NCBI GenBank assembly: GCA_028286345.1
Contig: JAQBRT010000003.1
Coordinates: 1 to 48,271, forward strand
DNA length: 48,271 bases
DNA from: Candidatus Saccharimonadota bacterium
GTDB taxonomy: Bacteria > Patescibacteriota > Saccharimonadia > Saccharimonadales > UBA4665
Reading direction: 5' to 3'
Shown: one piece after another, positions 29,066 to 47,500 of the stretch
How positions within the stretch are numbered: position 1 is the first letter of the stretch
Layout: each line of letters opens with the position of its first letter
Notes under the pieces: generated by a model
Seen by the model: only the letters and a program-made list of their open reading frames with translations
What the model was told of the DNA's origin: nothing
Databases searched by the model: none
Position numbers and translations under genes: made by a program

Positions 29066-30328
29066 CTAGCTGCTTGGTGCGGCTTCGAGCGTGGCATCTA
29101 TTGTTACGGTTTTGCCGTCACGGACAACCGTCAACTTAATTGAGTCACCAACCGAGTGCTGTCCGAGCAAACTGAGCAAACTATGGGTCTGGTCAAGTTT
29201 AGTACCGTCAACTGCCGTGATGATGTCCTTTTCTTGCAAGCCAGCTTTCTCTGCAGGGCTGCCAGAAACAATCGGGCTTGAGCCGTCGGCGGAAGGAGCT
29301 ATGTAGGCACCGCTAGAGACTGGCAGGTTGTATTGGTAGGCCACATCGGCAGTTAGCATGACGTAGTGGACACCAAGGTAGGCGCGCTCAAATTTACCGG
29401 TCTTGAGGACTTGGTTGATGATGCCCTTAATGTCGTTAACCGGAATAGAGAAGCCAATATTCTGGGCACCACTGCCGGCTACGGCGGTGTTAATACCAAT
29501 CACCTGCCCGTTTAAGTTAACTAGGGGGCCGCCAGAGTTACCGGAGTTAATGGCGGCATCAGTCTGGATGAGGTCGGCTAGGCTTTCGCTGGAGCTGCTG
29601 CTACCGCTGTCGCTGGCTTGGATACTTCGGCCATAGCCTGAGACAATACCGCTGGTTACGCTGTTTTGGAACTGGCCGAGAGCGTTACCAATGGCTACGA
29701 CATTATCGCCAACCTGGATATTGCTGGAGTCACCTATGGTAGCTGGAACCAATTTGTGGCCCTTGGCATCGTTGACTTTAAGTATGGCTACATCGAGTGA
29801 GTCGGTTTCGGCTGTGCGGCCGACTACGCTAACATCTTTGAGTTCGGTACCGTCACTCAGCGTTACAGAAATTTTGGTTGTTCCGGCCGGGACCACGTGG
29901 CGGTTGGTCACAATAATACCTTTGGAGGAAATAATAATGCCTGTGCCGGCAGCTTGCTGGGTGGTTGGTGTGGTGTAGCCAAATAGGCTGCCGAGGCTAT
30001 CGGTGCTGGTGGTTGTTACGTCAACATTGACGCTCACGACGCTCGGGCTAAGGTTCTTAGCGATCTGACTGATCAGCTTACTTTCACCGGTCACGATTTT
30101 TTGGCCACTTAGCGAGGTTGTGCCCAGGCCAAGGTCACTATTATGATTCTCGAGTACTGCACCGCCATAGCCAGCAATAACAGCGGTCAGAATGAACGCT
30201 ACCGCGAGCAGGCCATGGCGTAGACGGCCATCGGTTGGCCGCTTAAACTGTGGCCGCGACATGGTTGGTACCGTAAAACTAATCGTCCGCGGTGATGATT
30301 GTTTTGATGAGGATTTATTTGCGCCCAT
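29066..30328 (-). CDS. htrA: HtrA/DegP-type serine protease with PDZ domain
   Basis: 420 aa. One N-terminal membrane helix (about 38-58) exports the protease domain. The triad is His144 (TNRHVV), Asp179 (SLDVAILK) and Ser265 (NSGNSGGP). A single PDZ domain follows at about 310-405 (GSPAEKAGLQEKDIITAVDG). The start at 30328 is preceded by AAAGGGGGG seven nt upstream. It is last in the LCP-membrane protein-htrA run on the minus strand. Role: degradation or refolding of misfolded envelope proteins, fitting the heavy export load of this region. Confidence 0.94.
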   Translation of the reverse strand: MGANKSSSKQSSPRTISFTVPTMSRPQFKRPTDGRLRHGLLAVAFILTAVIAGYGGAVLENHNSDLGLGTTSLSGQKIVTGESKLISQIAKNLSPSVVSVNVDVTTTSTDSLGSLFGYTTPTTQQAAGTGIIISSKGIIVTNRHVVPAGTTKISVTLSDGTELKDVSVVGRTAETDSLDVAILKVNDAKGHKLVPATIGDSSNIQVGDNVVAIGNALGQFQNSVTSGIVSGYGRSIQASDSGSSSSSESLADLIQTDAAINSGNSGGPLVNLNGQVIGINTAVAGSGAQNIGFSIPVNDIKGIINQVLKTGKFERAYLGVHYVMLTADVAYQYNLPVSSGAYIAPSADGSSPIVSGSPAEKAGLQEKDIITAVDGTKLDQTHSLLSLLGQHSVGDSIKLTVVRDGKTVTIDATLEAAPSS

Positions 30329-30343
30329 CTTATTCCCCCTTTT

Positions 30344-31099
30344 TTATCCTGATACGACTTTGTCGCCCCAGTCCGAGAAGGTCAAGACCAACAGGACTAT
30401 GGCAAGCATGATGAAGACAAACTGACGGCGTGTGGATTTGCTGAGACGGTCATTGTGATCGAGGTAGTAAAGCGAAGCCAGGCCGTAACCAAGCGTGCTG
30501 AGTAACAGTGTAACCTGCGACACCAAGCCGTAAAACAGCAGCCAGTGGCCAAGCAGCCAGGCCAATGCGGCACCAAAGTAGGCCCAGATGTAGGCTAGCA
30601 GCCGGTTATATGGCTCGTCGAAGCTCTCAAAGAAGTGCCGCGCCGACAAGAAGCAGATCAATCCCGTGATCAGCGTCAAGCCATAGAGTGGCCCATCACC
30701 CCAAACCAAGTACAGCGCCATCAGCCCGGTGAATTGGCCAATAAAGGCCTGCAAGGACACCATAAACAGCGTTGATTTTGGCTTGATGACGATCAGCCAG
30801 ACAGCGTAAAGCACCGCCCACAGTAACTTAAAGAGCTCCCCATCCGAATGGTACATAAACATGACCATCGGGATACCTACCAGTAGGTCCACAGAGTTTG
30901 CCCGGATGTTGGTGGGCCAGAACCGTGGCCTGACCGCAAACATCCTCCACTTACTTAATACGACAATGCTTAGAGCAAGCTGAAAGAAGCCGAGGCTAAC
31001 CAGCACAAAGACGATTGCTGGCAAAAGCACCAGCAAACCCAAGTAAAAAAAGTGTGCAAAACCGGTGGCTGGTTTAATTTTGGCTACTAGTGGACGCAT
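30344..31099 (-). CDS. Polytopic membrane protein of unknown function
   Basis: 251 aa with about seven hydrophobic helices and short loops (FLSARHFFESFDEPYNRLLAYIW is one conserved-looking loop). No enzymatic motif is recognised. Its start overlaps the LCP gene by 26 nt and its stop is 15 nt from htrA, so the three are one transcription unit. It may assist envelope polymer assembly or surface protein export, inferred only from neighbours. Confidence 0.75.
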   Translation of the reverse strand: MRPLVAKIKPATGFAHFFYLGLLVLLPAIVFVLVSLGFFQLALSIVVLSKWRMFAVRPRFWPTNIRANSVDLLVGIPMVMFMYHSDGELFKLLWAVLYAVWLIVIKPKSTLFMVSLQAFIGQFTGLMALYLVWGDGPLYGLTLITGLICFLSARHFFESFDEPYNRLLAYIWAYFGAALAWLLGHWLLFYGLVSQVTLLLSTLGYGLASLYYLDHNDRLSKSTRRQFVFIMLAIVLLVLTFSDWGDKVVSG

Positions 31100-32708
31100 C
31101 GCTACCTAATATGATAACAAAGTCTGCGCCATTTGGTTGAATTGTTGCGTCAGGTAGTGTGGTAACACTTGTGGTCTTGTAGCGTTGCTCGAGGTAATTC
31201 TTGGTGTATTTGTACTTGCCGGCACTAAGGTCAACAATTGTGGTCTTGGTGTAAGTCTTAGTTGGGGCGTTGGCAGCACCAACGATGTTATAGCCATAGG
31301 TCTTGAGCTCCGCAGCCTTAGTAGCCGCTAAACCAACGGTTGTACTGCCGTTCAGTACCAGGATTTTAGAATCCTCTTTAACAATGTAGCCATCTTTGAG
31401 CTGCTGGCGGATAAAGGTCTGGATATCACCGTAGTTAAATAGCCCGGCTTTAGGTAATACGACTGATTGGCCGTTCATATTGCCCGTTGTTACAAAGCCG
31501 TTAGCACCCTTGTCATCACCCGCCAGGCTGAGTGACGTCACTTTGCTGCCAACACTCTTCATAATCTGTACCAAGCGCGAGGCATCCCCGAGCGATAAAT
31601 CGGTCTGGGCATTGTCGGCGAAAGAACTCATAAGGCCAGACAGTTTAACCGGGTTACTGAGCGTGCCGGCGGTCAGGACCTTGTCTTTGAGGGCCATTAG
31701 CACCGAACGCTGGCGCTGGGCACGGGCGAAATCACTGGTGGTTTCACGGGAGCGGACATATATAAGGGCGTGTTTGCCATCAAATGCCTGGACACCGGCC
31801 TTGGCCAGTACCGGGTTGTTGGCGTTTTCCCAAGCCATGGTTGGGTCGATGAGATCTGTTGGAACGTTAACGGTCACGCCACCAACGGTGTCGATTGCCT
31901 GGCTAAAGGCATGAAAGTCTACCAGCATGTTGTAGTGCACCGGCAAACCGGTCACAGCCAGGATTTCTTGGTCAACCAGCTCAAAGCCTGCTTGGTTGCC
32001 GGCCGTATCCTTCATATCGTGGGTAATCTTGCCGGCATACTTATATTTACCGCTTTCCCAGACGGCGTTGAGCTTCATGGCGTTAAAGTTTGGCACGTCA
32101 ACCCAGAGGTCGCGCGGCAAACTCAGCAATGTGGCCGTGTTATTCACCGGGTCGATGCTGGCCAGCATGATGGTATCTGTTAAGTCCGGGGCTTGGTGTG
32201 TGCCACCACCGCGGCCAAGTAACAAGATGTTAACCCGGCCATCGCCCTCACCTTTGAGGCGGCTAGGGTCAACATTAGCGGTTAATGCGGCGGCGGATGC
32301 AGTACCGCCCTTAAAGACTTTTCTGGCCTTAAAATAGCCCTGAGAACCAAGGAAACCACCGGTAGCTAATAATATGACGAGTAGTGTGGCCGAGCTACGC
32401 ATAACAAATGGACGGATGCGGCGCCACCTGCTGGTTTTGACCTGCATTTGCGCCTGAAAATCGCTCTCGCCGCCAGGCAGCCCCATATCAATTGGGGTGC
32501 GCTTCTTAGGTTCTGGGGCGGCAACAGCTTCTTCGGCCCGTAAGCGGTCGCGGGTGGTCAGCGCTGAATGGGAGGTTAGTGGTGCCGAATGCGGGCGCCA
32601 TGAAGTGGCCGGGGCACCAAATCCATCGATAGAACCCCCAGATACTTTTTTGAATGATTGGCGTGCCGCAGGCTTAACGTCATGCCGTTTGAATCTTGAA
32701 CTATCCAT
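31074..32708 (-). CDS. LytR-CpsA-Psr (LCP) family protein with LytR_C domain
   Basis: 544 aa. A cytoplasmic, Arg/Ser/Pro-rich N-terminus (1-98) leads to one membrane helix (about 101-121). The LCP domain follows (about 155-320) with NILLLGRGGGTH, DLTDTIMLASIDP, LSLPRDLWV and a YVRSRETTSDFARAQRQR motif carrying the conserved arginines. A C-terminal LytR_C domain begins around KILVLNGSTTVG. LCP enzymes transfer polyprenyl-linked glycopolymers onto peptidoglycan or proteins, so the host envelope should bear such polymers. The start is divergent from lepB; a TATACT box lies 15 nt before the ATG. Confidence 0.93.
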   Translation of the reverse strand: MDSSRFKRHDVKPAARQSFKKVSGGSIDGFGAPATSWRPHSAPLTSHSALTTRDRLRAEEAVAAPEPKKRTPIDMGLPGGESDFQAQMQVKTSRWRRIRPFVMRSSATLLVILLATGGFLGSQGYFKARKVFKGGTASAAALTANVDPSRLKGEGDGRVNILLLGRGGGTHQAPDLTDTIMLASIDPVNNTATLLSLPRDLWVDVPNFNAMKLNAVWESGKYKYAGKITHDMKDTAGNQAGFELVDQEILAVTGLPVHYNMLVDFHAFSQAIDTVGGVTVNVPTDLIDPTMAWENANNPVLAKAGVQAFDGKHALIYVRSRETTSDFARAQRQRSVLMALKDKVLTAGTLSNPVKLSGLMSSFADNAQTDLSLGDASRLVQIMKSVGSKVTSLSLAGDDKGANGFVTTGNMNGQSVVLPKAGLFNYGDIQTFIRQQLKDGYIVKEDSKILVLNGSTTVGLAATKAAELKTYGYNIVGAANAPTKTYTKTTIVDLSAGKYKYTKNYLEQRYKTTSVTTLPDATIQPNGADFVIILGSDASTSSQN

Positions 32709-32765
32709 CTCTAACTATGTTCTAGTATAGCGTTTGTGCTTCGTCCGGACAACCCCTCACGCTTA

Positions 32766-32774
32766 TGCTATAGT
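32766..32774 (+). promoter_or_regulatory. Extended -10 of lepB
   Basis: TGC-TATAGT, 9 nt before the lepB ATG, with no ribosome site. Confidence 0.55.
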
Positions 32775-32783
32775 AAGTGACTG

Positions 32784-33506
32784 ATGGACAATAATCCAAA
32801 TCCCAAGCCAACTGATCCGTTACAGCCACATGTGGTCGAGCCAGTGCTTCCTCCGCAATCACCGGCGCCTGTCGTGTTGGCACAGAAACCCCCAGAAGAC
32901 GATCATGGCGCCAAGGGCGACGTAGGCTCTGGTGGTGGTTTTGGCGAGTTTATTTCTACCATTGGCATACTTTTAACCGCCCTAGCCGTTGCAGTACTGA
33001 TGATCCTGTTTGTTTTCCGCTCCTACCAGGTCGACGGCCCCAGCATGCAATCCACCCTGCAAAATGCCGACAAGCTTATCATCTGGAAAGTCCCGCGCAC
33101 CATCGCCAGAATCACCCATCATACGTACATCCCTAACCGCGGCGACGTGATTGTCTTTACCGAAAGTGGCCTCTCTGCCTTTGGCCAATCAGACACCAAG
33201 CAGCTAATTAAGCGCGTGGTCGGGCTGCCAGGCGAGCGCGTTGTCGTTGCAAGCGGCGTGGTTACCATCTTTAATAAAGCGCACCCAACTGGCTTCCAGC
33301 CCGACAAAACTCTGCCATACGGCAAAGTTATTCCAAACACCTCTGGTGATGTTGATGTTACGCTGCGCCCGGGACAGGTGTTTGTCTGCGGCGACAACCG
33401 TCCGGATTCACTCGATTCCCGCGCTTTTGGCCCAATCGACGCCAACCAAATCATCGGCAAGCTCGTCCTGCGCGTTTTCCCACTCGGCCAAGCTAAAGCC
33501 TTCTAG
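32784..33506 (+). CDS. lepB: Signal peptidase I
   Basis: 240 aa. A Pro-rich cytoplasmic N-terminus precedes one membrane helix (about 58-78). The catalytic serine is in VDGPSMQSTL (S87) and the general-base lysine in KQLIKRVVGLPGE (K143); the GDNRPDSLDSRAFGPID box is also intact. It removes signal peptides of Sec substrates on the outer face of the membrane. Given the number of anchored proteins here lacking obvious cleavage sites, many substrates may be elsewhere. Near-leaderless start. Confidence 0.96.
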   Translation: MDNNPNPKPTDPLQPHVVEPVLPPQSPAPVVLAQKPPEDDHGAKGDVGSGGGFGEFISTIGILLTALAVAVLMILFVFRSYQVDGPSMQSTLQNADKLIIWKVPRTIARITHHTYIPNRGDVIVFTESGLSAFGQSDTKQLIKRVVGLPGERVVVASGVVTIFNKAHPTGFQPDKTLPYGKVIPNTSGDVDVTLRPGQVFVCGDNRPDSLDSRAFGPIDANQIIGKLVLRVFPLGQAKAF

Positions 33507-33526
33507 TCACACCGCCCGCTTTCCTG

Positions 33527-33532
33527 TATATT
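33527..33532 (+). promoter_or_regulatory. -10 box of parB, leaderless
   Basis: TATATT, 7 nt before the parB ATG at 33540, 20 nt past the lepB stop. Confidence 0.5.
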
Positions 33533-33539
33533 CATAGGC

Positions 33540-34421
33540 ATGAGCGCAACACCAAAACGAGGGCTCGGACGGGGCTTTGGCGCCTTATTGCCAACCGACT
33601 ACGCCGAAACAAACCTTCTCCTAACCCCTGAAGACCGCATTGAGCAGGTTCCCTTAACGTCCATTCAGCCCAACCCGCACCAACCGCGCCATACATTTGA
33701 TGCTGACGCCCTTCAGGAACTGGCCGCCTCTATTAAAACCTACGGGATTATCCAACCAATCGTTGTCTCGCCGGCCTCTGGCGGCACCTACACACTAATA
33801 GCCGGTGAACGCCGTTGGCGCGCCGCAGCCCTAGCCAAGCTGACACATATCCCAGCTATTGTCCGTACCGGCAAAGAGTTAGAGCGCCTCGAGATTGCCC
33901 TTTTGGAAAACGTCCAGCGGGTTGACCTATCACCAATTGACCAGGCTATAAGCATCGAGCGCTGGCACCAGCAGTTCTCTGTTTCCTACGACACTATTTC
34001 TAAGCGCCTCGGCAAAGCCGTCTCAACCATCAATAACACTGTACGTTTACTTGGTTTACCAGAAGCCGCCCGCCGCTCCCTGGAAGCTGAAAACATCACC
34101 GAAGGCCACGCCCGCGCCATCTTATCGTTAAAAGACCACCCCGAACAGCAGGACCATTTACTTGAAGGCATTGTCACTAACGGCTGGAGCGTCCGCCAAG
34201 CCGAGCGCTACGCTACCGGTGTTAAGTCTGGCGCCGCCACCGATGCTGGCACCGCTAAAGCCCGTGTTTCTAACGAAACCCCGGCCACCAAAGCACTTTC
34301 CAAGCGCATCGGCACACCCGTCACCATTAAGCGCACCGCCCGAGGCGGCAAACTCGAACTCGCTTTTGGATCCGATGAAGAACTCGAAAGCCTAATCGGC
34401 CGCTTAAATACCCTCAACTAG
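33540..34421 (+). CDS. parB: Chromosome partitioning protein ParB
   Basis: 293 aa. The N-terminal ParB/Srx CTPase-type domain has IQPNPHQPRHTFDADALQELAASI, the box ending GERRWRAAALA, and IALLENVQRVDLSPI; a helix-turn-helix domain follows (SYDTISKRLGKAVSTINNTVRLL), then a C-terminal dimerisation segment. It binds parS and loads around the origin. Unusually it converges with parA, their stop codons sharing the CTAG at 34418-34421. No parS match was noticed in the window. Confidence 0.95.
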   Translation: MSATPKRGLGRGFGALLPTDYAETNLLLTPEDRIEQVPLTSIQPNPHQPRHTFDADALQELAASIKTYGIIQPIVVSPASGGTYTLIAGERRWRAAALAKLTHIPAIVRTGKELERLEIALLENVQRVDLSPIDQAISIERWHQQFSVSYDTISKRLGKAVSTINNTVRLLGLPEAARRSLEAENITEGHARAILSLKDHPEQQDHLLEGIVTNGWSVRQAERYATGVKSGAATDAGTAKARVSNETPATKALSKRIGTPVTIKRTARGGKLELAFGSDEELESLIGRLNTLN

Positions 34422-35179
34422 GTAGTGCGCTTTAGGACTTCTTTGGCTAGGGCTTTATAGGCGCGGGCGCCTTTGCTCCAGCGGTCGTGCTCATAAATGG
34501 TGCGGCCGTAACTTGGCGCTTCGGCCAGGCGGACATTACGTGGAATCAATGTCTTGAATACTTTATCGCCAAAGTACTGGTTTACTTCGGCCAGTACCTG
34601 CTCGCTTAAGGAGTTACGCTTATCAAACATGGTGACGGCGATGCCCAAAAGCTCCAGCGCCGGGTTGGTGCTGCCGCGCACCGCTTGGATAGTGTTGAGC
34701 AATTGGCTTAAGCCTTCGAGTGCGTAATACTCAGCTTGGACCGGGATCAGGACTTGGTCGGCGGCAGTTAGGGCGTTAATGGTCAAAAGTCCGAGCGACG
34801 GCGGGCAGTCAATAAAAATGTAGTCATAGCTGGCGAGCTCCAAAGCTTTCTTGAGCGCGAACTCACGTTTTGGTTGTTCAACCAGTTCGATCTCGGCTCC
34901 GGCCAAGTCGGCGGTAGTTGGCAAGACAAATAATTGTGCGACGTTGGTTTCGTGGACGGCATCGGCTAGTTTTACCGTTCCGCTAATCACATCGTATGAT
35001 GTTGCCCGGACTTTTTCTTTTAAAATCCCAAGCCCACTACTGGCGTTGCCTTGGGGGTCAAGATCGACGAGCAAAACCGACTTGCCCTCTTCGGCGAGCT
35101 GGGCGGCAATATTAATAGTAGACGTGGTTTTGCCGACGCCCCCTTTTTGGTTCACCACCGCGATCATTGTTTGTGTCAT
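34418..35179 (-). CDS. parA: Chromosome partitioning ATPase ParA/Soj
   Basis: 253 aa. Deviant Walker A KGGVGKTTST near residues 12-21, the LLVDLDPQGNASSG motif and FIDCPPSLGLLTINAL define the ParA family. AGAGGA lies five nt before the ATG, and an extended -10 (TGGTATACT) lies upstream with a leader of about 15 nt. It segregates chromosomes with ParB. It is convergent with parB rather than in the usual parAB operon, so the two must be regulated separately. Confidence 0.96.
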   Translation of the reverse strand: MTQTMIAVVNQKGGVGKTTSTINIAAQLAEEGKSVLLVDLDPQGNASSGLGILKEKVRATSYDVISGTVKLADAVHETNVAQLFVLPTTADLAGAEIELVEQPKREFALKKALELASYDYIFIDCPPSLGLLTINALTAADQVLIPVQAEYYALEGLSQLLNTIQAVRGSTNPALELLGIAVTMFDKRNSLSEQVLAEVNQYFGDKVFKTLIPRNVRLAEAPSYGRTIYEHDRWSKGARAYKALAKEVLKRTT

Positions 35180-35277
35180 CAGGTTCCTCTTATGCTCAAG
35201 TATACCATCAATTTGTGTGCAACCTAGCCGCTGTTCTGCCCTCTGTTAACTAGCCGTATAATACTAGTCTTAGGTGG

Positions 35278-36180
35278 CTAATTCTGCTTAAGGTTTTCGA
35301 GGTAGACTTTCCAGTCTCCCGACTGCTGGCTGAACGGGCTATTAATGAAAATTAGCAGGTTGTTAAAGCTATACACCACCGTTTGGGCATGGGACTTAGG
35401 GTCAGTGGCGATGTAGCCTGTACCCCTGTTAGTCACGACCGCCTGGGTGGCGCTGAGGCTTTTAGCGATGCTGGTGACAGCTTTCTCGGCACTGCCAAAG
35501 CTGGTCGGTAGCGGCTGTTGGCTGACGGTAATATCCATACCCTTGATGCTGTCAGCGTAACTAAAGGTCTTTTTGGCAGTGTCGTAGGAGGTCTTCCCTG
35601 CTTCGCCATCGGCCAGCTCGGTTTTTGCAGCCGGGGTAACTGGCTTAAAGGCTGGTTTTACGGTAACGGTCGACTGTTGTTTGACCTTGGCCGTGGCAGC
35701 GGCGGTCAGTGCTTCCTGCCGGGCAGTTTGGTGATTTTGCCAGAGGTGGTTGCTGCCAGCAACCAGTCCAATACCCAGCGCCAGCACAGCACTGGCCTTG
35801 GCCACCGACCGATAAGGCATGTGACGGGCCGCTAGGGCCGCCTTTTGCTGGAGATGCGTCAGATATGGCCTAGAGTGTTTTACGGCCGCCTGAGCGGCTC
35901 CTAAAAGCTTAAGCGTGATGTTCTTGGCCTTGTCGGCACTAATAGTTGGCAAGCTGATGTTGATCGAGACCGTTGTGGCTGTAGCCGCCGATGCTTCCGC
36001 GACCGGTGTTGGGGCAGGAACAGCTGGCGTGGCGAGTTCGTTCCACTGAGGCACCACGGGCCGCTCAACCGTTGGTATAGCAACCGGCTGGCGGCTGGCA
36101 AAAGCCTGTTGGAGCGCGGCCTTCCTGGCCTGCTCTTCTGCTGCGATTACCTCTGGTGTTCTGAATTTTATTTCCGTCAT
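35278..36180 (-). CDS. Single-pass membrane protein sharing its N-terminal module with the Kelch protein
   Basis: 300 aa. A charged N-terminus gives way to a Pro/Ala-rich stretch with VPQWNELATP, then the motif TTVSINISLP (69-78), a basic amphipathic region and one membrane helix (about 128-146). The outer domain (150-300) is small and mixed alpha/beta, ending YSFNNLLIFINSPFSQQSGDWKVYLENL. I recognise no family. The cytoplasmic part parallels that of the Kelch protein directly upstream. A TATAAT box precedes it by about 50 nt. Function unknown; a partner or assembly factor of the surface proteins is possible. Confidence 0.7.
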   Translation of the reverse strand: MTEIKFRTPEVIAAEEQARKAALQQAFASRQPVAIPTVERPVVPQWNELATPAVPAPTPVAEASAATATTVSINISLPTISADKAKNITLKLLGAAQAAVKHSRPYLTHLQQKAALAARHMPYRSVAKASAVLALGIGLVAGSNHLWQNHQTARQEALTAAATAKVKQQSTVTVKPAFKPVTPAAKTELADGEAGKTSYDTAKKTFSYADSIKGMDITVSQQPLPTSFGSAEKAVTSIAKSLSATQAVVTNRGTGYIATDPKSHAQTVVYSFNNLLIFINSPFSQQSGDWKVYLENLKQN

Positions 36181-36258
36181 ATTGCCGGTGTTTATTTACT
36201 GCGCTCACATTACGCTCTTAACGTAAGTACTATTATAGCGGACTTGGCAAGATTTTGC

Positions 36259-39200
36259 CTATGGGTGCGCGTCTAACCCCTGCTTTGTCTGGTCTTGGAA
36301 GATGCGGCCGTTGCGCAGGCGGGTGTTGCCGGAGGGAGAATAGTAGAAACTGTAGGCTGTGATTGCGGGCTGCGTGCTATCGATGAACGCAAAAGATTGG
36401 CTCTGGTCGATATCAAATGTAATTGACCAGTAGCGAGCCACGCCTTCATCCACACCGGAAGTGTTGTAGGCAGTCATAGTAAAAGGATTTGGCCCGAATG
36501 GCAGGTTTGTATTACTGGTCACCGTCCCAAAGCCGGATCCAACATTGCCTATACGGCATGACTGGTAGCGCATGCGCCAATAGTCAATATCAATGCCATT
36601 CACCTGAGCATTACCACCGTTAATGACAAATTTTTGTGGCGTTGCATCACCAACAAGGTCAATATAACGGGTAAAGATGCTGCGGATTGCCTGGGATTGT
36701 TCGCCAGTATAATAGTTTGTCGTCTGAATTACAGGTGTGGCAGTACAATCAGCTCCGCCAATCATGTAGTAATAGCCATTGTAATATGCAGTGCCTATAC
36801 CAAAACGTGCGCTAAAGCTGGTTGCAACACCTTGTGTCCAGGCACCGATATAACCACTACTGCCGACACTTGCTACATACGTCGTATTAAGGCACCCGGT
36901 ACTGGCACCCGTAGAGCCGCCCATCAGGTATATGTATCCATTAGCGGCATACGCAGCCGCGGCTCGCATTTTGTATGGGAGGTCGTTTGCAAACGTCCAG
37001 GTACCAAGATCGCCAGTGCTGGTATTAATCTGTGAGAATTGCACGTCGCCAAGCGTGTTACTGCCATCAAAACCTCCCATGACATACAGGTAGCCCGCAA
37101 CCGCCACAACGCTAAGATAACTCCGGGCCGTGGTAAAAGTGTTGCTACTATTAAGCGTCCAACTAATTGTAGTACCACCACTCGGCAACGATGAGCTGTA
37201 ATAGTAGTTGTTGCTTACGTTTCCGATAGCATTACCTGTCTGTCCACCAACGACATAAATGCGATTATTATAGGTTGCGCATGATGTAGCCCCACGGTTC
37301 GTGCCCAGTGCAGTACTCGTGGTAAAGCTACCCGGCACACCACTGGTGATATTGCTGATATAGACATCGGGTTGTGGCGGACCATTGTTGTAGCCACCTA
37401 TGTAATAGAGTGAGCCGTTGAGCGCCACCATGCACCCGAAACCTCTTGCCTGCCCCAAAGCCGGTCCATTTGTGAACGAAGCTGCCAAGGACCCATCGGG
37501 ATTAATTGCAGAATACTGTGTGGTGGTGGTTGTACTACCACAGTTTGTTCCTGTAAAGCTATTACAGCCACCAGCAAGATATAAATAGCCTTTGTAGGCA
37601 GCGGCAGCCACACCCGTGTAGGCGGTTCCCAATGCTGTTGTACTTGCTACAGATCGGGTTGCAGAGTTAGTGGCATTATAAATCTGAAAGTATTCGGTGT
37701 GGTTATCGCGCGACGAACAAGTTGTAGGAGGATTGCCGGCGATACAGCCACCAACGGTATAGATGTTACCGTTTGCAAATGCACTTGCGGTATCCCATTT
37801 AGCTGTAAACTGGGTGGTCGAAATGGTCATGTCTGATTGGGCTATGTCGCCACCGCTAGCAATTTTACCGATATTAATTGTACCGATTGAGACATTGTTC
37901 TGGCCATCGTGACCACTAAATACGTAGAGGTAACCGTTTGCTGCATAGGCTTGGTTACGACGAATCGGGTGGTTCGCAGTACTCACGGCACCTGGCTCGT
38001 AGTTCAGGAGTGCAGTAACGAATGACCAAGCACTGTCATCGACATTGGCTCCTGACAACGACAATGTCGTGTAGATACAGCGCTGCGTCTGGCCCTGCGC
38101 ACTTGCCGCTCCACCACACAGGTACACACGGTTATTATAAAAAGCCAAGCCCATGGCAGCATTTGGGGCACCAGCTGAAGTTGGCAGCTGGTTGGTTAGG
38201 TTACCTCCGCTGGTCAACGTTGTTCCGGAAACGGTGTAACGGGTCACAAGCTGGGAGTAGCTACTGCACCCAAAGCCACCACTTGCAATACACCCACCAA
38301 ACAATAAGAATGAACCCTTGTAGTAAATAGCGCTAACAGCGTGGCGTGCTGTGCCGATACCGCCGGTCATGGATGTCCATGCACCGGGCAGCGCGCCAGT
38401 TGATGCACTCGGAGTAACGGTCCAGGCAGTGGCTAAGTCGCCTGTGGTGCCGCCGTCATAATACCCGCCAAATGCATATAAATTACCGTTTGCAGCTACG
38501 AGAGATGTTTCGGCAACACCGCTATTGAGGCCAGTTCCGTTAATAGTGGCTGTCGATGTGTTTGCCCAAGAACCAAGTGTGCCATCGGTCTGAATGGGTG
38601 CGTAGTAGGTTTGGTTTGTGACATTTGGGTTGCCTGAACCACAGGTGTTAGTGATACAGCCACCGACGACGTATATATAGCCATTGAGTACTGCGGCGGA
38701 TGAGCCAAAGACACTTATAGGCAGTATTTGATTAGGGCTGGCAGTTGAGACTAGCCTGGTCAAGACGCTCGCCTGTCCTGGCGTATTAACTGTTGCGTAC
38801 TGATTAGCTGCCAGCGTCGTAGCACAAGTCAGGCTGGTAGTGCCGGTTGTCACGCACCCAAATAGGCTATAGATCGTGCCCCTCCAGGCAATCTCGGCAC
38901 CCCCAACACGCGCTCCGGTGAGGGATGTGGTTGTGGCCCATTGCCCGAGACTACCATCGGCGTTAATCTGGGCAAGCTGATTGTCACTCATGGAGTCTGC
39001 AGAGCTGCTACAGTTTGAGGTAGCAGACACGACAGTCTTACACCCCCCTGATAAATAGATATATCCATTTTTTACCGTAGTATATGTACCGCCAAAATTT
39101 TCACGAGCCGTTGTAAATACATTGGTGCTGAGCCAGTTGCTAGTACCGGTACCATAAATAGTTCCATCATCGTTAAGGGCAACATAGAGCACTGTATTTG

Positions 39201-41205
39201 TTAGCGTACCGTTCAGGTTCCCGCCAACCATGTATAAATAGCCGTTGTAGGCTTGCATATCGCCGCCGTAGCGAGCTGCTGGCAAGTTAACTGCATTCGT
39301 GTTGTTTGGTGCGCCCGTTGCTAAGGTACTGTTCGTCCATGTAAGTGTTCCGTCCGGGTTAACCGTCGCATAGCTTACATCTGCTGTGCCAGTTGCTGTG
39401 CTGGCAGTTTTACCGCCAGCAATATAGATTTTGCCGTTGTAGGCAGCCAGGCCAAAATCACAACGGGCCGTGCCGGGCGCATCAGTTGTTGACCAGTTAC
39501 TGAGTACGCCGTTAACTTGTACGGATGCATAGTAAACGGTAGTCGAAAGAGTACTGCATGTGTCGTCTGTGGTTGAGCCGCCAATGGCGTATAGAAATCC
39601 TTTGTAGCCAACCAGCTGGAACCGGGATAAGCCTCCTGAGGGAAGACCGCTATTATTACCTGCTAACCATGAACCCAGCGTTGATGGGCTGCTGACCGTG
39701 CCACCGGTGCTTGCCTGGGAGTAGGTAGCCGCTGCTATTGAAGGGTCGGTCGCGGAAATTTGGCTGTACTCGACCATATTGGTATTGCTGCCGGTAATAT
39801 TTGACGTAGTTGTACCACCAACGCCACCGACAACATACATGTAACCATTAAAGGCAGTTGCTCCAGCCAAAAATCGTGCTTGATTGAGTGAGTTACCACC
39901 ATTTGTCCAGCTATTTGGGGTACCGCCCGTAAGCGCTCCACGGGTAATTTTGTTACCGGTGACATTAAAGTCAGCGTTTGACTCTACGCTAGTGTTGCGA
40001 TAAAACTCAGCAGTTGTCGAGATTTGTACTGTAGGGTCAATACTCAGGGGATAATTTGCTTTTTTGAGGTGTACTGCCGTAACAGTTAACTCATCATTCT
40101 TCAGGCTATATGTCGCTTTTACGCCGCTAGCTAGCGGGCCTTCTGCCTGACGAATAGTCGGTGCAGGAATAATAAATAACAGTTTATCTTTTTTGGATTG
40201 TTGTTGAAGTTTTTTGGCCAATGCTGCATCTTGCGCGGTACTCGTACTGATGGTAGTTGGCAACGTGCTACTTCCGTAAATACCAAGTGAACCATCATTC
40301 AAAATTCTGGCAGCATACGTAACTCCCAAACCAAGCTTATATTTAAAACGAAGCGTGTCAGCACTCCTCTGCTTCAATAAAATATCTTCTTTTATCCCGC
40401 TCGCTTGAGCCGTGTAAATAACAGTTTTACTACCGTCGATCGGAAAGCTAACCTGGTTTTTATTTTGGCGTCCCTGCATCGCCCCAAACAGAGGTGAAAT
40501 CTTTATCTCTGCTTGCGTTTGAGCATCGGTAATACTCACACCCTTGGTGATATCTTGTGCAATCGTGGCACTCATAACGGTGCCGCCTCCCGTAACGGCA
40601 TTGCCACCATCGAGCTGTGTGGCCTGTGTCGCGGCAAAGTTGAAGACGCTGCTTTGACTATCAAACTTTAAGTTTGCAGCCATATCGTCGTCTGTTTTTG
40701 CAACCACCGCCATATCATCAGTGCTTAAAGCATAGGCGGTTGATTGCCATCGATGGTCAAGGAATGGCATGGCAACCTCAAGCAGTAATACAAACACCAA
40801 GGCAAACGACAGTATCGAAAAGCTATACCGTGGCCATCGTCCAATTCGCAAAGTATCATAGACTGTCTTGCCTATTCGGTTACGTGGGCGCTTGGGGCCG
40901 TTTTTGATAGCCAGCATGACCACCTCTTTGGAGATGTGGTACGGCAAACGGAAATTGATTGTGACCGTGGTTTTTTTGGGACGGTTAACATGATGGGCTG
41001 GGTCTCGGCGCTTTGGTGCCGGGCGCTCGACGGCGGCCGGCTTGGGCTCGCTGGCCGTTGCACCCACCTGCTCTTTCTCAGATACTGGCGGTACCCACCA
41101 CTGGCGGGTCACCGGGTTCCACTCAGGAGTTGGGCGTTTTGCAGCTGCATCAAATGAGCGCCCGGTATGGGCGCGCGTTGGTCGCGACCGCTTAAAATCA
41201 TCCAT
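36259..41205 (-). CDS. Giant membrane-anchored Kelch-repeat surface protein
   Basis: 1648 aa. The N-terminus is Arg/Pro-rich with PTPEWNPVTRQWWVPP and TTVTINFRLP (79-88), and one membrane helix follows (about 128-148). Residues 160-400 form a domain ending LSIDPTVQIST, a pattern seen before beta-propellers in other CPR surface proteins. From about 430 on I count eighteen Kelch motifs of the GYLYVMGG type, spaced about 45-80 residues, enough for three six-bladed propellers. The C-terminus (about 1535-1648) is a separate beta-rich domain. The protein would sit outside the cell as a ligand- or glycan-binding surface display; adhesion to a host cell is inference. ATG at 41205 without a clear ribosome site. 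Confidence 0.9.
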   Translation of the reverse strand: MDDFKRSRPTRAHTGRSFDAAAKRPTPEWNPVTRQWWVPPVSEKEQVGATASEPKPAAVERPAPKRRDPAHHVNRPKKTTVTINFRLPYHISKEVVMLAIKNGPKRPRNRIGKTVYDTLRIGRWPRYSFSILSFALVFVLLLEVAMPFLDHRWQSTAYALSTDDMAVVAKTDDDMAANLKFDSQSSVFNFAATQATQLDGGNAVTGGGTVMSATIAQDITKGVSITDAQTQAEIKISPLFGAMQGRQNKNQVSFPIDGSKTVIYTAQASGIKEDILLKQRSADTLRFKYKLGLGVTYAARILNDGSLGIYGSSTLPTTISTSTAQDAALAKKLQQQSKKDKLLFIIPAPTIRQAEGPLASGVKATYSLKNDELTVTAVHLKKANYPLSIDPTVQISTTAEFYRNTSVESNADFNVTGNKITRGALTGGTPNSWTNGGNSLNQARFLAGATAFNGYMYVVGGVGGTTTSNITGSNTNMVEYSQISATDPSIAAATYSQASTGGTVSSPSTLGSWLAGNNSGLPSGGLSRFQLVGYKGFLYAIGGSTTDDTCSTLSTTVYYASVQVNGVLSNWSTTDAPGTARCDFGLAAYNGKIYIAGGKTASTATGTADVSYATVNPDGTLTWTNSTLATGAPNNTNAVNLPAARYGGDMQAYNGYLYMVGGNLNGTLTNTVLYVALNDDGTIYGTGTSNWLSTNVFTTARENFGGTYTTVKNGYIYLSGGCKTVVSATSNCSSSADSMSDNQLAQINADGSLGQWATTTSLTGARVGGAEIAWRGTIYSLFGCVTTGTTSLTCATTLAANQYATVNTPGQASVLTRLVSTASPNQILPISVFGSSAAVLNGYIYVVGGCITNTCGSGNPNVTNQTYYAPIQTDGTLGSWANTSTATINGTGLNSGVAETSLVAANGNLYAFGGYYDGGTTGDLATAWTVTPSASTGALPGAWTSMTGGIGTARHAVSAIYYKGSFLLFGGCIASGGFGCSSYSQLVTRYTVSGTTLTSGGNLTNQLPTSAGAPNAAMGLAFYNNRVYLCGGAASAQGQTQRCIYTTLSLSGANVDDSAWSFVTALLNYEPGAVSTANHPIRRNQAYAANGYLYVFSGHDGQNNVSIGTINIGKIASGGDIAQSDMTISTTQFTAKWDTASAFANGNIYTVGGCIAGNPPTTCSSRDNHTEYFQIYNATNSATRSVASTTALGTAYTGVAAAAYKGYLYLAGGCNSFTGTNCGSTTTTTQYSAINPDGSLAASFTNGPALGQARGFGCMVALNGSLYYIGGYNNGPPQPDVYISNITSGVPGSFTTSTALGTNRGATSCATYNNRIYVVGGQTGNAIGNVSNNYYYSSSLPSGGTTISWTLNSSNTFTTARSYLSVVAVAGYLYVMGGFDGSNTLGDVQFSQINTSTGDLGTWTFANDLPYKMRAAAAYAANGYIYLMGGSTGASTGCLNTTYVASVGSSGYIGAWTQGVATSFSARFGIGTAYYNGYYYMIGGADCTATPVIQTTNYYTGEQSQAIRSIFTRYIDLVGDATPQKFVINGGNAQVNGIDIDYWRMRYQSCRIGNVGSGFGTVTSNTNLPFGPNPFTMTAYNTSGVDEGVARYWSITFDIDQSQSFAFIDSTQPAITAYSFYYSPSGNTRLRNGRIFQDQTKQGLDAHP

Positions 41206-41342: not shown

Positions 41343-41465
41343 TTAGGCCGTCTGAAAGATCGGGTCGCTGAGGATCATTTTGCGCAGGTTTTCCTGCTCT
41401 TTACGTTCCACGCGTGACAGCCTCTTTAAGAGGCGGTCGTCTTGCTTTTTGCGGTCTTTTTTCAT
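41343..41465 (-). CDS. Small charged protein, 40 aa
   Basis: The frame begins ATG at 41465 and ends TAA at 41343. It encodes a very charged peptide: KKDRKKQDDRLLKRL at the start, a helical VERKEQENLRKMILSD middle and FQTA at the end. About half of all residues are charged and a single amphipathic helix is likely. AAGGGA lies about 12 nt upstream, a weak ribosome site. It sits between a giant fibre gene and an intrinsic terminator, so it is the last gene of that transcript. I recognise no homolog. Reality is supported by position and codon continuity, not by family. Confidence 0.55.
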   Translation of the reverse strand: MKKDRKKQDDRLLKRLSRVERKEQENLRKMILSDPIFQTA

Positions 41466-41573: not shown

Positions 41574-44500
41574 TTATTGGCCTTTCGCCAGGAAGCTTAG
41601 GTTGCTGACATAAACTGGCTGGGCAGCACCACCACCGCTAGCGACGGCGGTTACATCAATCTTGAACAGGATTATATCGTTGGCAACGAGGCTACAGTTG
41701 TTAGTGATGTTTAGCGCCGCCCAGGTGTTGGCTGCCACACTACCACCGCTAAGTGAAGCCGTACTACCACACTGCGTACCACTGGCGTTGTACATACTAA
41801 AGGCTACGTCGTCACCGGTTGTGGCCGTGCGACGGGCGTTCAATGAAACGTTGCCCGAAATACTCTTGTAGGTAGCTGGCAGCTGGTAACGTATGTAGAT
41901 GCTATACGACTGGTTCGTTGGCTGGATAGTGCTCCAGTTGTAGTAGTTGTAGAAGTCGCCGGAGGTTGAACAGACACCTGAGTTAATAGCCGAGCCGCCT
42001 GTGAAGGCGCCGACATTAGCACAGAGGTCAGAGGTCAGTGAACCAATGCCGCTACCGTTCAAAACGGCACCGGTGTATTCAGGGACTAGGTTGACGGATA
42101 CGTCAGGTGATGCACCACAGTAGCCCCAGCCAGTAGCTTCGTAACACTGCATCTTGCCAAGTGTAGTGTCGTAGTACATTGAGCCTAGTAGCGCGCTGTT
42201 TGGCGTGCTACTAGTGGTTGGCCGGCCGGCAAACGTATCAAGCGTCAGGAGTGAGAGGCCCTGGCCGGCAGCACCACCGAGTTTTACTTGTGAAACGGTC
42301 AGGGTGTTCGTGGCGGTTTGGGCGATGATTGAAACGTTGTCGACGTAGAGCGTTGTGCCGGTGGTTCCAACTTCGTAGATGGCCAGTGATGGTGACGTGA
42401 ACGTGTTGGTGCTACCAGTTGTAAAGGTACAGCTAAACTTCTGGAATGTAGTGGTTATTGTCAGGCTGGTACAGCCGTTAACGGCACCCGTACCGGCATC
42501 GACACTCGTGCTGTTGAAGAGGATGGCGGCGGCATAGTCGGAAGCGCTACCAGCGGCGGCCTTGGCCGTAAAGCTAATCAGGTAGGTGGTACTGGCAGCT
42601 AGGGCGCTGGTGGTGCCCTTAAGGCCGGAGCTGGCACCGCTGAGGGTAGCCTTACCACCGGCTACACCGCTGATGAATTCATTGGCCGCGTTAGCGAGGT
42701 TAGCAGTAGCGGCGCCGTAAGCACTCCAGCCAGTCAAACTTTCGATACCGCCGTTGGTCATCAAGTTAGTGCCGCTGTTGCTGTTAGTGGTGTTAACCGT
42801 AAACAGCCCGGCGCCAACGCTGTTCTGAATAGTGAAGGCGCTGCTGGTGTCGGTGGTCGCTTTGTTGGCGAGGCCCAGTGAGTCGTATGTAGTCTTGGTG
42901 TTGATACCTTGCAGGATCAGGGTGCTTCCAGTAGTCGTACCGCCGATGGTGGTGTTAGTAACAGAGGCGGCCGTTGAGTTATTGCCAATGCCGATCGTCT
43001 GTGTAACGGCGTTGGCGGTGCTGCCAATCTGAATAGTCTTGGAGTTGTTGCTAGTACCGATGTTGATCGTTCCGGAAGCACCAGTGTCCAGGGCGGCTGT
43101 AGAAGCAGCACCGGCAGTCAGGCTGGCACCAGCCGTACTGGTAGCAACCAGGCCGTTACTGCCGGCGGTCAGGTTCAAGCCAGTCGAGCCGGTGTTGTTA
43201 CCGATAGAAATTGAACGGGCGGTGCTAGTTGAACCGATACCTATGGCTGTGGCAGTTGCACCAATCGTGACCGTACCAGCGCCAGTTGTGTCGAGCAGCG
43301 CGGTGGCTGTGCCGGTAGCTTTGAGGCTCAAGTTGTTGGTGGCACCACCGGCCTGGACAGTGACATCGGCGTTGCCGGTGACGGTCTGGCCAACGATCAA
43401 GTTACCATTGTTATCAACCTGGAAAGCGCCGTTAGTACCGGCACCGGCACCAACAGATAGCAAGCCAGCTGGCGCGGTAACACCGATACCAACATTACCG
43501 CCGCGGAAAATACCACTGTAGAAGTTAGTGATGGCACCAGTGGTGACCGGAACATCGACATAGACACCATAGCCTGTGGTGATAGCACCAGTAGCGTTGG
43601 TGTTCTGGAGCTTGGTGTAGAGGCCGTAGGCGGTGGTGATAACGCCGTTACCGCTCTTGATGACGCCGGCGTTGACGCCATAAGCCGTACCGATAGTACC
43701 GACGTTGCTGTTAGTGACCGTGAAGTTGCCACCGTAGGCGTTGGTAACAGCATCTGTGGCCTGGGTACTGTTGTGAGTGACTCCGCCTTGCAAACCGTAA
43801 ATGGCTGAGGCAGTCTTGCTGGCGGTACCACTGGCAAAGACAGCTGAGAAGTTACCACCAAACAGTGAGCCGGTGTAGTTAACGCCTGAGCCACCAGCCG
43901 TAATACCACCCTGGATGCCATTAAAGGTGTTGGCGTTATCGGCAGCATCAGTGAGAGTACTGCCAACCTTTAGGGCGTTGCCGCCAGCGGCGCTGGTTGG
44001 GGTACTGGCGATTTCGACAGTGTTGGTGGCTGTTACCGTGTTGGTGCCGATGACAACATTGCCTCCGCCGCCTTGGATCTTCACGGCACCCTTAGTACCG
44101 GCACCGCCACCTGAAGCACCACCGTCGATTGTGGTATCGCCGCCGTTTTGGCCACTGCCAGTACCAGCTCCAGCAGTCAGCGACAAGTTACCGCCAACCG
44201 CACCGGTACTGCCGCCAGCACCAGCGGAGATAGAAACGTTACGGCCAGCGGTCGCGCCAGTGCTCTGGGCAACGCTGATAGTTGCGTTTGCACTGTTAGC
44301 GAACTGCAGCTGGTTAACGCTCAGGACTGTACCGCTGACATCAAGCCCTGTGGTGGTTGAGCTGGAGGTAAAGTAGCCGGTGCCAAAACGGGCGCCGCTA
44401 GTGCCAACATCTACAACGCTGCTGGCGTTTAGCCGCTGGTTGAGGAACAGTGCGCCAGTAGAGTCAAAGTAGGCTTGCAGGTTTTGGGTGGTGCCGGAGT

Positions 44501-47500
44501 TATAGACTTCAAGGGTGTTCGCTGCCGAGGCTACGTTTGCGCCCTTAACTGTCAGCGAGACGATAGCGGCTGCGGTTGGCATGATGATGTTGTCGGAGGT
44601 TGCGGCTGGCGTGTTGCGGATGAACTGGCCGGCACCATCGCTGCCTTGGATTGCTGCACCGACATAGGCTGTACCGTTACTGCGCAGGACAAAGCCAGTG
44701 GTGTTGGCGCTACCGTTGTACAAGAAGCCGGCAGCACCGCTAACTGTGCCAGCGGTGTTACTGATGTTACCGCCAAACTGGGCAGTACTACTTGCAGTTA
44801 GTGCGCCGGTATTGGTGACCTTAAAGACGCTGGCTGGAACAGCGCCAACCTGTAAGTTCAGAAGGTCAGCCGTGCTCGTGCCGGCACCAATCCCAAGCCA
44901 GGTGCCGTTTGCGCTACCGCCGCTAAGTGCCGCGCCAAATTGGACCAATGGCTGGGTAGTGCTAGAGCTTGGCACGCCGCTGACTTTAAGCTGGGTGCCT
45001 GTCGAGCCATTGCCAGTCAGGAATAGGCTACCGGAACTGCTGTAGTTACCAGAACTATCAATTATCAATTGGCCAGTGACGCCATGTGTTAAGCTGCCGA
45101 CTTCAACAACGTTACCGCTGTTGTCGACAGTAAACTTGTTGTAGCTGGATGTGCCGATAGCCAAACTGTCGCCCTTGATTGAGGCTGCGGTCTGAATGCG
45201 GCTGGTACCAGTCTGAATAATGTCACCAAAGCCGCCAGCGATGCTACCACCGACCAAAGCACCAACCTGGGTTAAGTTGCTGTAGTTAACGGTTGAATCG
45301 ACAGCAAAGTTCTGGAGCTTGCCGGTGCCGCTGATCAGCTGGTTGCCGTTGTAGTTCAGGATATCGTTGTAGCCGGTGCCGAAGTACAGGCCACGGAATG
45401 TGTTGCCCGTAATTGGTGCACTGGCAATGCTATTAAAGTTGAGGGCATTAGTGATGTTTGTACCACTAGCATTAGTAACACCAGCAAGGTTGTAGGTTGA
45501 GGCACTAATGGTCGATGTGCCACCACCAGCATTCTTGTTGTTGATGATAAAGCTAGCAACATCGGCGTTACTGCTACCGTTATACGTGAAAGTTGCGCGG
45601 CCGCCGGAATCAACTACCAGGTATTCTGGGTTAGCGCCGCCGGTTGTACCAACAGTTAGGGTTGTCGTAGTACTAACATCGCCGGTTGCATTAACCTGGA
45701 ACTGGTTGCTGCTACCAACCTTGAGCACACCGGTAGAGCCAGTTATGACAACTGGCCCGGCTGCCGACAAGCTATTCGTGGTGTTGGTCAGGTCGAGCTT
45801 GCCGGCAATAGTAGTAGTACCCGTACCGTTGACGTTCAAGACACCGGCGGTGCTGATCTGGCTGGCGGTAACATCGAAGTACTTAGTTGTACCAGGCGTA
45901 CCGTTACCGTTGGCAACAGTAAACAGGCTGGCACCAAGTGGCGTCGCGTTATCGTAAATTTTGAGGCCGCCGTAGGTGCTGCTCAGCGTGATCTGTGGGG
46001 CAGACGTGCCTGAGTTGTCGTAGGCATTTTGTAAAGTAACAAAGCCTGATGGGCTGGAACAGGTACCACCGGTAGCGGCAATACCGCCGGCATAGTTAGC
46101 GCCAGTTAGGATTTGGCCAGAGCTACAAGTATATGTACCGCCAGTGGTAGCCCCAACAGCAAAGCCTTGGGCTGTGCTTACCAAACCAGTGCTGTCGACC
46201 TTGAGCTTATAAGTGCCGTTAACCTGGAAGTTCAGGAAGTCGGCAGTAGCACCAGTTGTCTGGTTAACACCAAGGTATGTACCGCTGGCAGAGCCACTGG
46301 CAATGGCATTTGGACCAAAGCGGACAAGTGAGCTGGTGCTGGTTGCACCTGGAGTGTTATCGAAGATGTTGCTGGCACCCTTAACAAGAATACCGCCAGC
46401 GCTCTGCAATGTGGTGACACCAGAGTTGGTTGAACCAATGTTGACTGTCTGGGTAGCAGCACCTGTACCAATGCTAATCGTGCGAGCAAAGGCATCTGTA
46501 CCAATGCCCAAGGCACCGGTACCACCGTTAATACTGACAGCAGTGCTGTTAGTTGAGTTACCGATCGTCACGCTGTTGGCGTTGGTGCTACCAATCTGAA
46601 TGGAGTTGGCACCACCGGTGTCGAGCGTCAAAGTGTTTGCCCCATTTGACTGCACTGCCAACGTGCCAGCACTGGTTGGCTTGATGGTATTGCCAACAGT
46701 AATATCTGCACCTGTGACGGTCAAGGTGCGGCTAGTAGTACCGCCGGCCAGCGTGAAGCCATCGGCAGCAGATGCGACCGTAATGCCGTTGTAGGTGCCA
46801 GCCGTAACGGCGCCGGTGGTAGCAACGTTAAAATTGCTTGAAGTGACTTGCAGTGTGTGGGTTGCACCAGCACTAATTGAGCTATTAGCACCACTGAGTA
46901 GGCTGAAGGCACCGGCGCTGGAGTTACCAATGGTGGTGCTAGACGTACTTGAACCACCGTTAATTGTGGTTGGGCCAGCGATGGTTACCGAGCTGCCACC
47001 TTGCAAAGCTAGTGTGCTGCTAGTGTTGGTTGAACCGATGGTTACAGTTTGGGCGGCTGCACCAGTAGCAAACTGGATAGCGTGGGCAGTGCCACCGTTA
47101 AACAAAGCTGTGGTGTTGCCACCGTTATTTTCGAGGCTAAAGCCAGTCGTTGCCGTGTTACCAATGCTGACCGTGCCGGTGCTGGTACCGCCGTTAATAC
47201 TGGTATTGAAGTTACTGGAGTCGTTGATCGAAGCTGCGGCGCCGGTGATAGTCAAACCAAGCTGGCCAGTGAGCAGTTGCTGTGAAGTAAAGGAGCCGTA
47301 GTTGGTTGTTGGGTTGCCACCCTTACCAATATTAACGCCACTGGCATTGGTGCGGCCGAGCTCAACGGTGCTTGGGCCGCCGGCGTCGAGCGTCAAAGTG
47401 TTGGTGCCATTTGATTGGACAGTCAAGGCGCCAGTGCTGGTTGGCTTGATAGTGCTGCCAATAGTGATATCTGCACCTGTGACGGTCAAGGTGCGGCTAG

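Follow-up and report, generated by a model that had tools for sequence, protein, structure and literature searches.

Saccharibacteria are ultra-small bacteria whose cultivated members live on other bacteria, and the locus described here raises the question of whether their envelope proteins carry a common address inside the cell. The window analysed is the entire contig C3 (JAQBRT010000003.1, 48,271 nucleotides) of a Candidatus Saccharimonadota genome of 901,885 bp that is 98% complete. Two neighbouring open reading frames (ORFs) on its reverse strand encode a 300-aa membrane protein (35278-36180) and a 1648-aa Kelch surface protein (36259-41205). A first-pass annotation had described these two as sharing a cytoplasmic N-terminal module beneath swapped outer domains, and had taken this as a hint of a sorting system for surface display. 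The observation of shared tail elements holds and is broader than that pair. In a search that had most subscription journals and preprints outside it, we found no description of how giant surface proteins are placed in Saccharibacteria and, judging by titles and opening lines of abstracts among the papers listed, nothing on such tail elements in the literature on Saccharibacteria or Patescibacteria tails, Kelch proteins or short linear motifs.

Short elements in pre-helix tails

Both ORFs were confirmed. Genes were taken as greedy longest ORFs and helices from a Kyte-Doolittle cut-off, so that starts and helix positions are approximate. Each tail carries the proposed motif TTVxINxxLP on the predicted inner side, ahead of a single helix: TTVSINISLP at residues 69-78 of the 300-aa protein (35947-35976, reverse strand) and TTVTINFRLP at residues 79-88 of the Kelch protein (40942-40971, reverse strand). 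The helix, placed by the annotation at about residue 128 in both, lies at ~131-149 in the Kelch protein (40759-40815, reverse strand), following a cytoplasmic tail of ~130 aa. That of the 300-aa protein (35752-35811, reverse strand) is weaker; it was missed at the first cut-off, was called at ~124 with a laxer one, and falls inside a helix spanning residues 123-164 in an AlphaFold2 (AF2) model. The outer parts are indeed unrelated, consisting of Kelch repeats in one protein and, in the other, a small alpha/beta domain (~175-300) without a Pfam family. As a DNA pattern, TT[VI]xINxxLP occurs twice in the genome, both times in this pair, and its reversed-pattern control not at all. By eye, the P-W-N element was seen in this form in no other protein.

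The common inner module that had been envisaged is not supported as a unit of shared descent; only elements of ~5-15 residues are shared. Local alignment of the two tails scores 41, a value equalled or exceeded in 561 of 5000 shuffles when the helix is left out and in 417 of 5000 when it is included, so that the pair alone is not significant. By the annotation's own yardstick, an alignment better than shuffled sequence, the pair by itself fails; it is relatives that lend weight to the resemblance. A search of the 92 other genomes of the own genome family with residues 1-159 of the Kelch protein gave nothing at E ≤ 0.01.

The 300-aa protein belongs to a Saccharibacteria family without a name. 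Sequence search places homologs in 16 of the 93 genomes of its own genome family, its own included, and a profile of 16 members (A1) finds matches across the class in 84 of 392 genomes, the weakest covering the tail part only. Relatives are present in seven named records, six of them metagenome-assembled genomes of Candidatus Saccharibacteria or Saccharimonadales. The window protein has no Pfam or NCBIfam family at E ≤ 0.1, and no Pfam match to any family, PilN included. The 16 A1 members give single-member family matches only (best E 0.013 in Pfam, 0.0025 in NCBIfam), and a PDB sequence search with A1 returned no match. The outer domain is the conserved part; the tails are divergent, yet the strand stays recognisable, for example as VSINISLPKFKKP, VSIEIKLPEFKLP, IEINIGLPSLRLPK, VSIQISMPSFRPP and VSINIHMPEFRIP. 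It can be seen in 15 of 16 A1 rows, the exception being L026 (loci fetched for comparison carry L numbers), which has almost no tail, and the motif proline is present in all seven rows of a further alignment (A3). A tryptophan occurs in 21 of the 33 scored long-tailed family members compared with 16 of 108 other bitopic tails. Recurrent forms of this Trp element are ADWLGDEP (L030), PEWLRD (L034), ADWLADDG (L038) and VDWLADDP (L084).

The AF2 model of the 300-aa protein (seven sequences, mean pLDDT 67) has a confident outer domain and a helix at residues 9-28; the strand motif is disordered in it, with residues 74-77 below pLDDT 50. Structural matches to the outer domain are weak and within the range of common arrangements, with a best Z of 7.4 (BT_1490) and Z of 6-7 to Apa, LpqN, DcrB, Mog1, RseB and others, while Foldseek gives a weak best match to PsbP (E 1.4e-3). 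Bitopic proteins of ~187-212 aa adjoin the 300-aa homolog in L076-L079, L082, L083, L085 and L086; several of them start MDxGPFRxxRPTDRR-like, and the three checked have no Pfam match.

The annotation had called for further carriers, and these were found: the motif also occurs in members of the 300-aa family, in Kelch giants, in LCP proteins and in a few HtrA proteases. Four window tails within 12 kb, all encoded on the reverse strand, carry it, namely ISFTVP in an HtrA-like protease (Trypsin_2 and PDZ; 29066-30328, with RTISFTVPTMSRPQFKRP at residues 14-31, 30236-30289), IDMGLP in an LCP (LytR_cpsA_psr) protein (31074-32708; residues 73-78, 32475-32492), INISLP in the 300-aa protein and INFRLP in the Kelch protein. 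Their shuffle frequencies are 0.02, 0.07, 0.13 and 0.08 respectively, with a product of 1.6e-5 for a pattern chosen afterwards.

Tails were counted only where 20-259 residues precede the first helix, the tail ends of three 300-aa members having been set by hand. On this basis phi.phi.phiP occurs in 18 of the 33 first-scored members of the 300-aa family (shuffle mean 3.2), 16 of 31 LCP tails (2.9) and 4 of 23 HtrA tails (0.43), each set lying above all 300 of its own shuffles; other bitopic tails are at shuffle level (8 of 108 against 7.1). The common form in LCP tails is phi-x-[MF]-x-L-P, 20-39 residues ahead of the helix. The LCP set comprises the window, L029 and 29 of 30 loci (L152 has no tail), out of many more LCP places, and the HtrA set comprises 22 of 30 loci, short or other ORFs (L193 and L210 included) having been dropped, together with L103. 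Some LCP, DUF3048 and 300-aa family proteins are among the 108 controls; taking out the last group leaves 102, with the same eight matches. Matches to the A1 profile were scored only in fetched loci. Eleven of L044-L073 duplicate earlier loci and 13 were re-fetched with more flank, and L059, L061, L065, L068, L070 and L071 were left out of scoring.

A longer pattern, phi.phi.phiP.phi..P, is concentrated ahead of the helix, with 12 matches in 15,544 aa of pre-helix sequence and five in 216,233 aa elsewhere; reversed sequences give none in tails and one in the others. Seven of the 12 fall in the 300-aa family; the others are a Kelch giant, the HtrA proteases of the window and L103, an LCP protein and one doubtful case (L039, 196 aa). 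Leaving out the 300-aa family, five matches remain, one of them doubtful, where 0.28 would be expected (P ~1e-5, or 2e-4 for four). A scan of the window's own genome with this pattern gives 31 matches and its reversed-pattern control 34, and among the 30 matches with a locus only that of HtrA sits in a pre-helix tail. Two kinds of candidate carrier were rejected. Tail-only matches to A1 in 400-530-aa proteins were, on inspection, a matter of Pro/basic composition, and three of these are DUF3048 proteins with the FxTPExVA element described below. A type I protein of the same genome with FRIKMHLPALPQP after its helix was judged a chance case because the sequence is absent from its closest homologs (L220-L222).

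Giant proteins often accompany the 300-aa family. An ORF of at least 1300 aa directly adjoins the 300-aa homolog in 21 of 33 first-scored loci and, among nine members added later, a giant neighbour is present in L043, L090 and L093; all four giants near a 300-aa gene that were checked with Pfam (window, L029, L034 and L041) have Kelch repeats. Tails were also scored with a position-specific scoring matrix (PSSM) built from 15 small proteins of the 300-aa family, the same locus being left out each time. Six of 13 giants of the own genome family reach p ≤ 0.05, the window Kelch protein at 0.007, as do two of 56 other bitopic proteins of that family, the LCP and HtrA proteins of L103. Two further giants are similar by eye and do not score with the PSSM (SITIKFTVPGW in L029 and VILRVRFRFRTP in L035). 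The pattern phi.phi.phiP is present in 6 of 14 giant tails of the own genome family (shuffle mean 1.4). The genome encodes a second Kelch giant by Pfam (contig C2, 621413-626029; L028, 4414-9030), of 1538 aa with a 110-aa tail and one helix, in which the strand-LP motif was not found (PSSM p 0.16).

Two further elements accompany the strand. An N-terminal element, defined as DD[FIV][KRQM] or [RKN]F[KR][RKSNH] within ten residues of the start, is present in 16 of 182 tail-type proteins compared with two of 364 others, one of those two being an LCP protein. Examples are MDDFKR in the window Kelch protein (41188-41205, reverse strand), whose start resembles those of LCP, DUF3048 and other Kelch tails, MDSSRFKR in the window LCP protein, MIDNSRFRR in a 300-aa family member (L029) and MIDDFK in DUF3048. 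The other element, FRTPEVIA at residues 6-13 of the 300-aa protein (36142-36165, reverse strand), also occurs in cytoplasmic tails of DUF3048 proteins. The form [FY][RKQ]TPE has four matches in 546 ORFs, all in tails, namely the window 300-aa protein and three Pfam DUF3048 proteins. In the 392 class genomes the DNA pattern for FxTPExVA has 18 places, spread over 17 genomes; the own genome family, with 59 genomes, accounts for 16 of these places, in 15 genomes, and for one of the eight places of the reversed-pattern control. Fifteen of the 18 lie in proteins that are 405-470 aa long and have a pre-helix tail, Pfam confirming three as DUF3048, and the rest are the window 300-aa protein, one soluble protein and one unrelated ORF. 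The window's own genome carries a protein of the 405-470-aa type at C2:751774. FxTPE was not seen in other members of the 300-aa family, in which the window protein is a single case. In L249, L251-L255 and L257-L265 the tails of FxTPExVA proteins often start MIDDF-like and end W-P-P-x-K-like at the helix.

This distribution bears on the idea that the motif is private to the 300-aa protein and its neighbouring giant, for instance through strand pairing between their tails, with the LCP and HtrA cases coincidental. The frequent direct adjacency of the two genes, and the fact that motif scores are highest in the 300-aa family and the giants, would fit. We nevertheless regard it as very improbable, given that the long pattern exceeds expectation in HtrA and LCP tails and that DDF[KR]/RF[KR][KR] starts are common to LCP, DUF3048 and Kelch proteins.

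A proposed docking role and its alternatives

Judged from their sequences, the tail elements are best described as several short linear motifs lying in juxtamembrane tails, not as one alignable domain; they recur in families with unrelated outer parts and are concentrated in pre-helix tails. The first would be an amphipathic beta-strand that closes with LP, some 13-45 residues before the helix, and that in many cases continues into x-phi-x-x-P and a basic stretch. The second would be an N-terminal D-D-F-[KR] or R-F-[KR]-[KR], and the third F-x-T-P-E-x-[VI]-A. We tentatively favour, at a little under an even chance, a reading in which these tails dock onto one or a few cytoplasmic proteins that co-locate envelope proteins. 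Such docking would bring together the 300-aa and Kelch pair, the LCP ligase, DUF3048 proteins and a part of the HtrA proteases, with the tails of FtsN and PilN on the actin-like FtsA and PilM as precedents. FtsA and PilM would themselves be candidates for the cytoplasmic partner. The variable distance between strand and helix would point to a soluble reader rather than the translocon. The sorting system originally suggested is possible; since envelope enzymes (LCP and HtrA) are among the carriers, docking or co-localisation would be at least as fitting as display. If the reading is true, a common cytoplasmic tag would serve as a handle for envelope proteins belonging to one site.

Several results weigh against such a reading. 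The two window tails by themselves are at chance level, and the phi patterns were picked after inspecting tails; with family members being related, the counts are therefore not independent tests. Reversed LCP tails match phi.phi.phiP in 8 of 31 cases, and only 4 of 23 HtrA tails carry it, a share not significantly different from that of other bitopic proteins (Fisher P 0.13). Across all fetched loci phi.phi.phiP is present in 18 of 42 tails of the 300-aa family, all 18 among the first-scored 33 and none among the nine added later, three of which have tails shorter than 20 aa. Relatives beyond the own genome family often keep the strand and often lose LP (KISFDSL, ININFGS). For the giants, the six of 14 with phi.phi.phiP exceed the shuffle mean and not the shuffle maximum, also six, and two of them (L034 and L038) match in another stretch, nearer the helix. 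Beyond the own genome family the PSSM reaches p ≤ 0.05 in just one of 16 giants. Among other bitopic proteins there, 11 of 50 reach that level. Three of these are members of the 300-aa family, and with them set aside the 8 of 47 left still exceed the expected 5%, which weighs on specificity; five of the eight lie in loci fetched for a tail match to the profile. With an 18-column PSSM the window Kelch and HtrA proteins fall below the listing threshold of 9, and at scores of at least 12 there are 14 tail, five non-tail and three reversed matches. A 132-aa ORF without a predicted helix (L098, 4602-5000, reverse strand; PEIEVQIRIPELEKYKGY) scores 20.3 with this matrix, a non-tail match without explanation.

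Some of these results would be expected if the motif were a by-product of membrane-proximal composition or physics, that is, an amphipathic basic/Pro strand lying on the membrane or aiding positive-inside insertion, with no dedicated reader. The stretches ahead of the helix are basic in the carriers, shuffled sequence scores almost as well as the pair itself, the tail-only A1 matches looked like Pro/basic composition, and the 8 of 47 unrelated bitopic tails just mentioned also reach p ≤ 0.05. We consider this explanation unlikely, though a serious contender. The other bitopic tails remain at shuffle level and shuffles preserve composition, the longer pattern is absent from reversed tails, and insertion would leave FxTPExVA and DDFKR unexplained.

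Alternatively, the tails might be read during biogenesis by a chaperone, SecA/SRP or a protease, as a targeting or quality-control signal for long tails and not for positional docking. The carriers are exported single-pass proteins, hydrophobic stretches with basic flanks resemble chaperone sites, and the cluster that contains the pair also encodes HtrA and a signal peptidase I-like protein (32784-33506, forward strand, by sequence). This appears improbable given that the motif was not seen in the tail of that signal peptidase, that most other bitopic proteins lack it, and that many orthologous HtrA and LCP proteins do so too.

Genomic surroundings

The cluster at 29066-36180 consists of HtrA, LCP, signal peptidase I, ParB, ParA and the 300-aa protein, continuing into the Kelch gene, and its gene order is partly kept in L029, L034, L084, L089 and L103. 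ParB (33540-34421, forward strand) was named by sequence and ParA (34418-35179, reverse strand) has a KGGVGKTT motif. ParA was considered as a reader of the tails and rejected, being in the locus in some cases only, with nothing else in support. Beyond the Kelch gene lies a 40-aa Lys/Arg/Glu-rich ORF seen by eye (41343-41465, reverse strand), followed by a repetitive fibre-like protein of at least 2231 aa without a Pfam match (41574-48269, reverse strand). The frame of the latter is open to the contig end, so that its N-terminal tail lies outside the window.

Comparison with known docking and sorting systems

Two studies describe how, for FtsN on FtsA and PilN on PilM, an actin-like adaptor takes up the tail of its bitopic partner in the IA-IC cleft, PilM being an actin-like relative of FtsA (PMC7613929; PMC5805733). 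The genome of the window encodes one FtsA and two PilM homologs. The nearest PDB structures to its FtsA are the FtsA entries 7q6d/f/g, which come from the first of these studies, and the one PilM homolog run against the PDB matches PilM. PilM matches above the cut-off lie on C2 and, for FtsA, C1, and the window contig has no such match; C2:384467 is a third actin-like match, a weak one. A cultivated Saccharibacterium is reported to have two pilus systems (PMC12206443).

The likeness to PilN is that of a bitopic protein with a short cytoplasmic tail in which a hydrophobic strand ends in LP ahead of the helix. The genome's own PilN proteins, named by their position beside PilM and by sequence, begin MIQFNLLPDVK and MMLNLMPPELK. 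Their strand with LP (FNLLP in the first) is one residue shorter than the INIxLP/INFxLP of the window tails, and it lies at the extreme N-terminus, whereas the window motif lies deep in a long tail (residues 69-88). A 30-aa PilN peptide had no match in the PDB.

FtsN offers a second comparison. The contact residues modelled for it are D5, Y6 and R8 (PMC7613929), and an acidic-aromatic-x-Arg element near the N-terminus of a basic tail, a weak criterion, is also found in MDDFKR of the window Kelch protein and MDDFRR of L031. The tail element is short and of low information, and an Asp immediately preceding the Phe is absent from the start of the LCP protein and of many of the small proteins. Both likenesses comprise a few residues each. 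By this analogy FtsA and/or PilM are conceivable as readers of strand-LP and DDFKR-type motifs on unrelated bitopic proteins, which would place surface giants, LCP, HtrA and DUF3048 proteins at the site of division or of the pilus; in this specific form the idea is fairly improbable. The C-terminal peptide of FtsZ was rejected as a model, the genome's own FtsZ (by sequence) having DLEKPSFLRR near its end, with only a partial PxF likeness.

The familiar sorting tags LPXTG, PEP-CTERM and MYXO-CTERM are C-terminal and lie on the outer side. The elements described here resemble them as short tags common to proteins with unrelated outer domains, and differ from them in lying N-terminal to the first helix, inside the cell, and in being present also on envelope enzymes.

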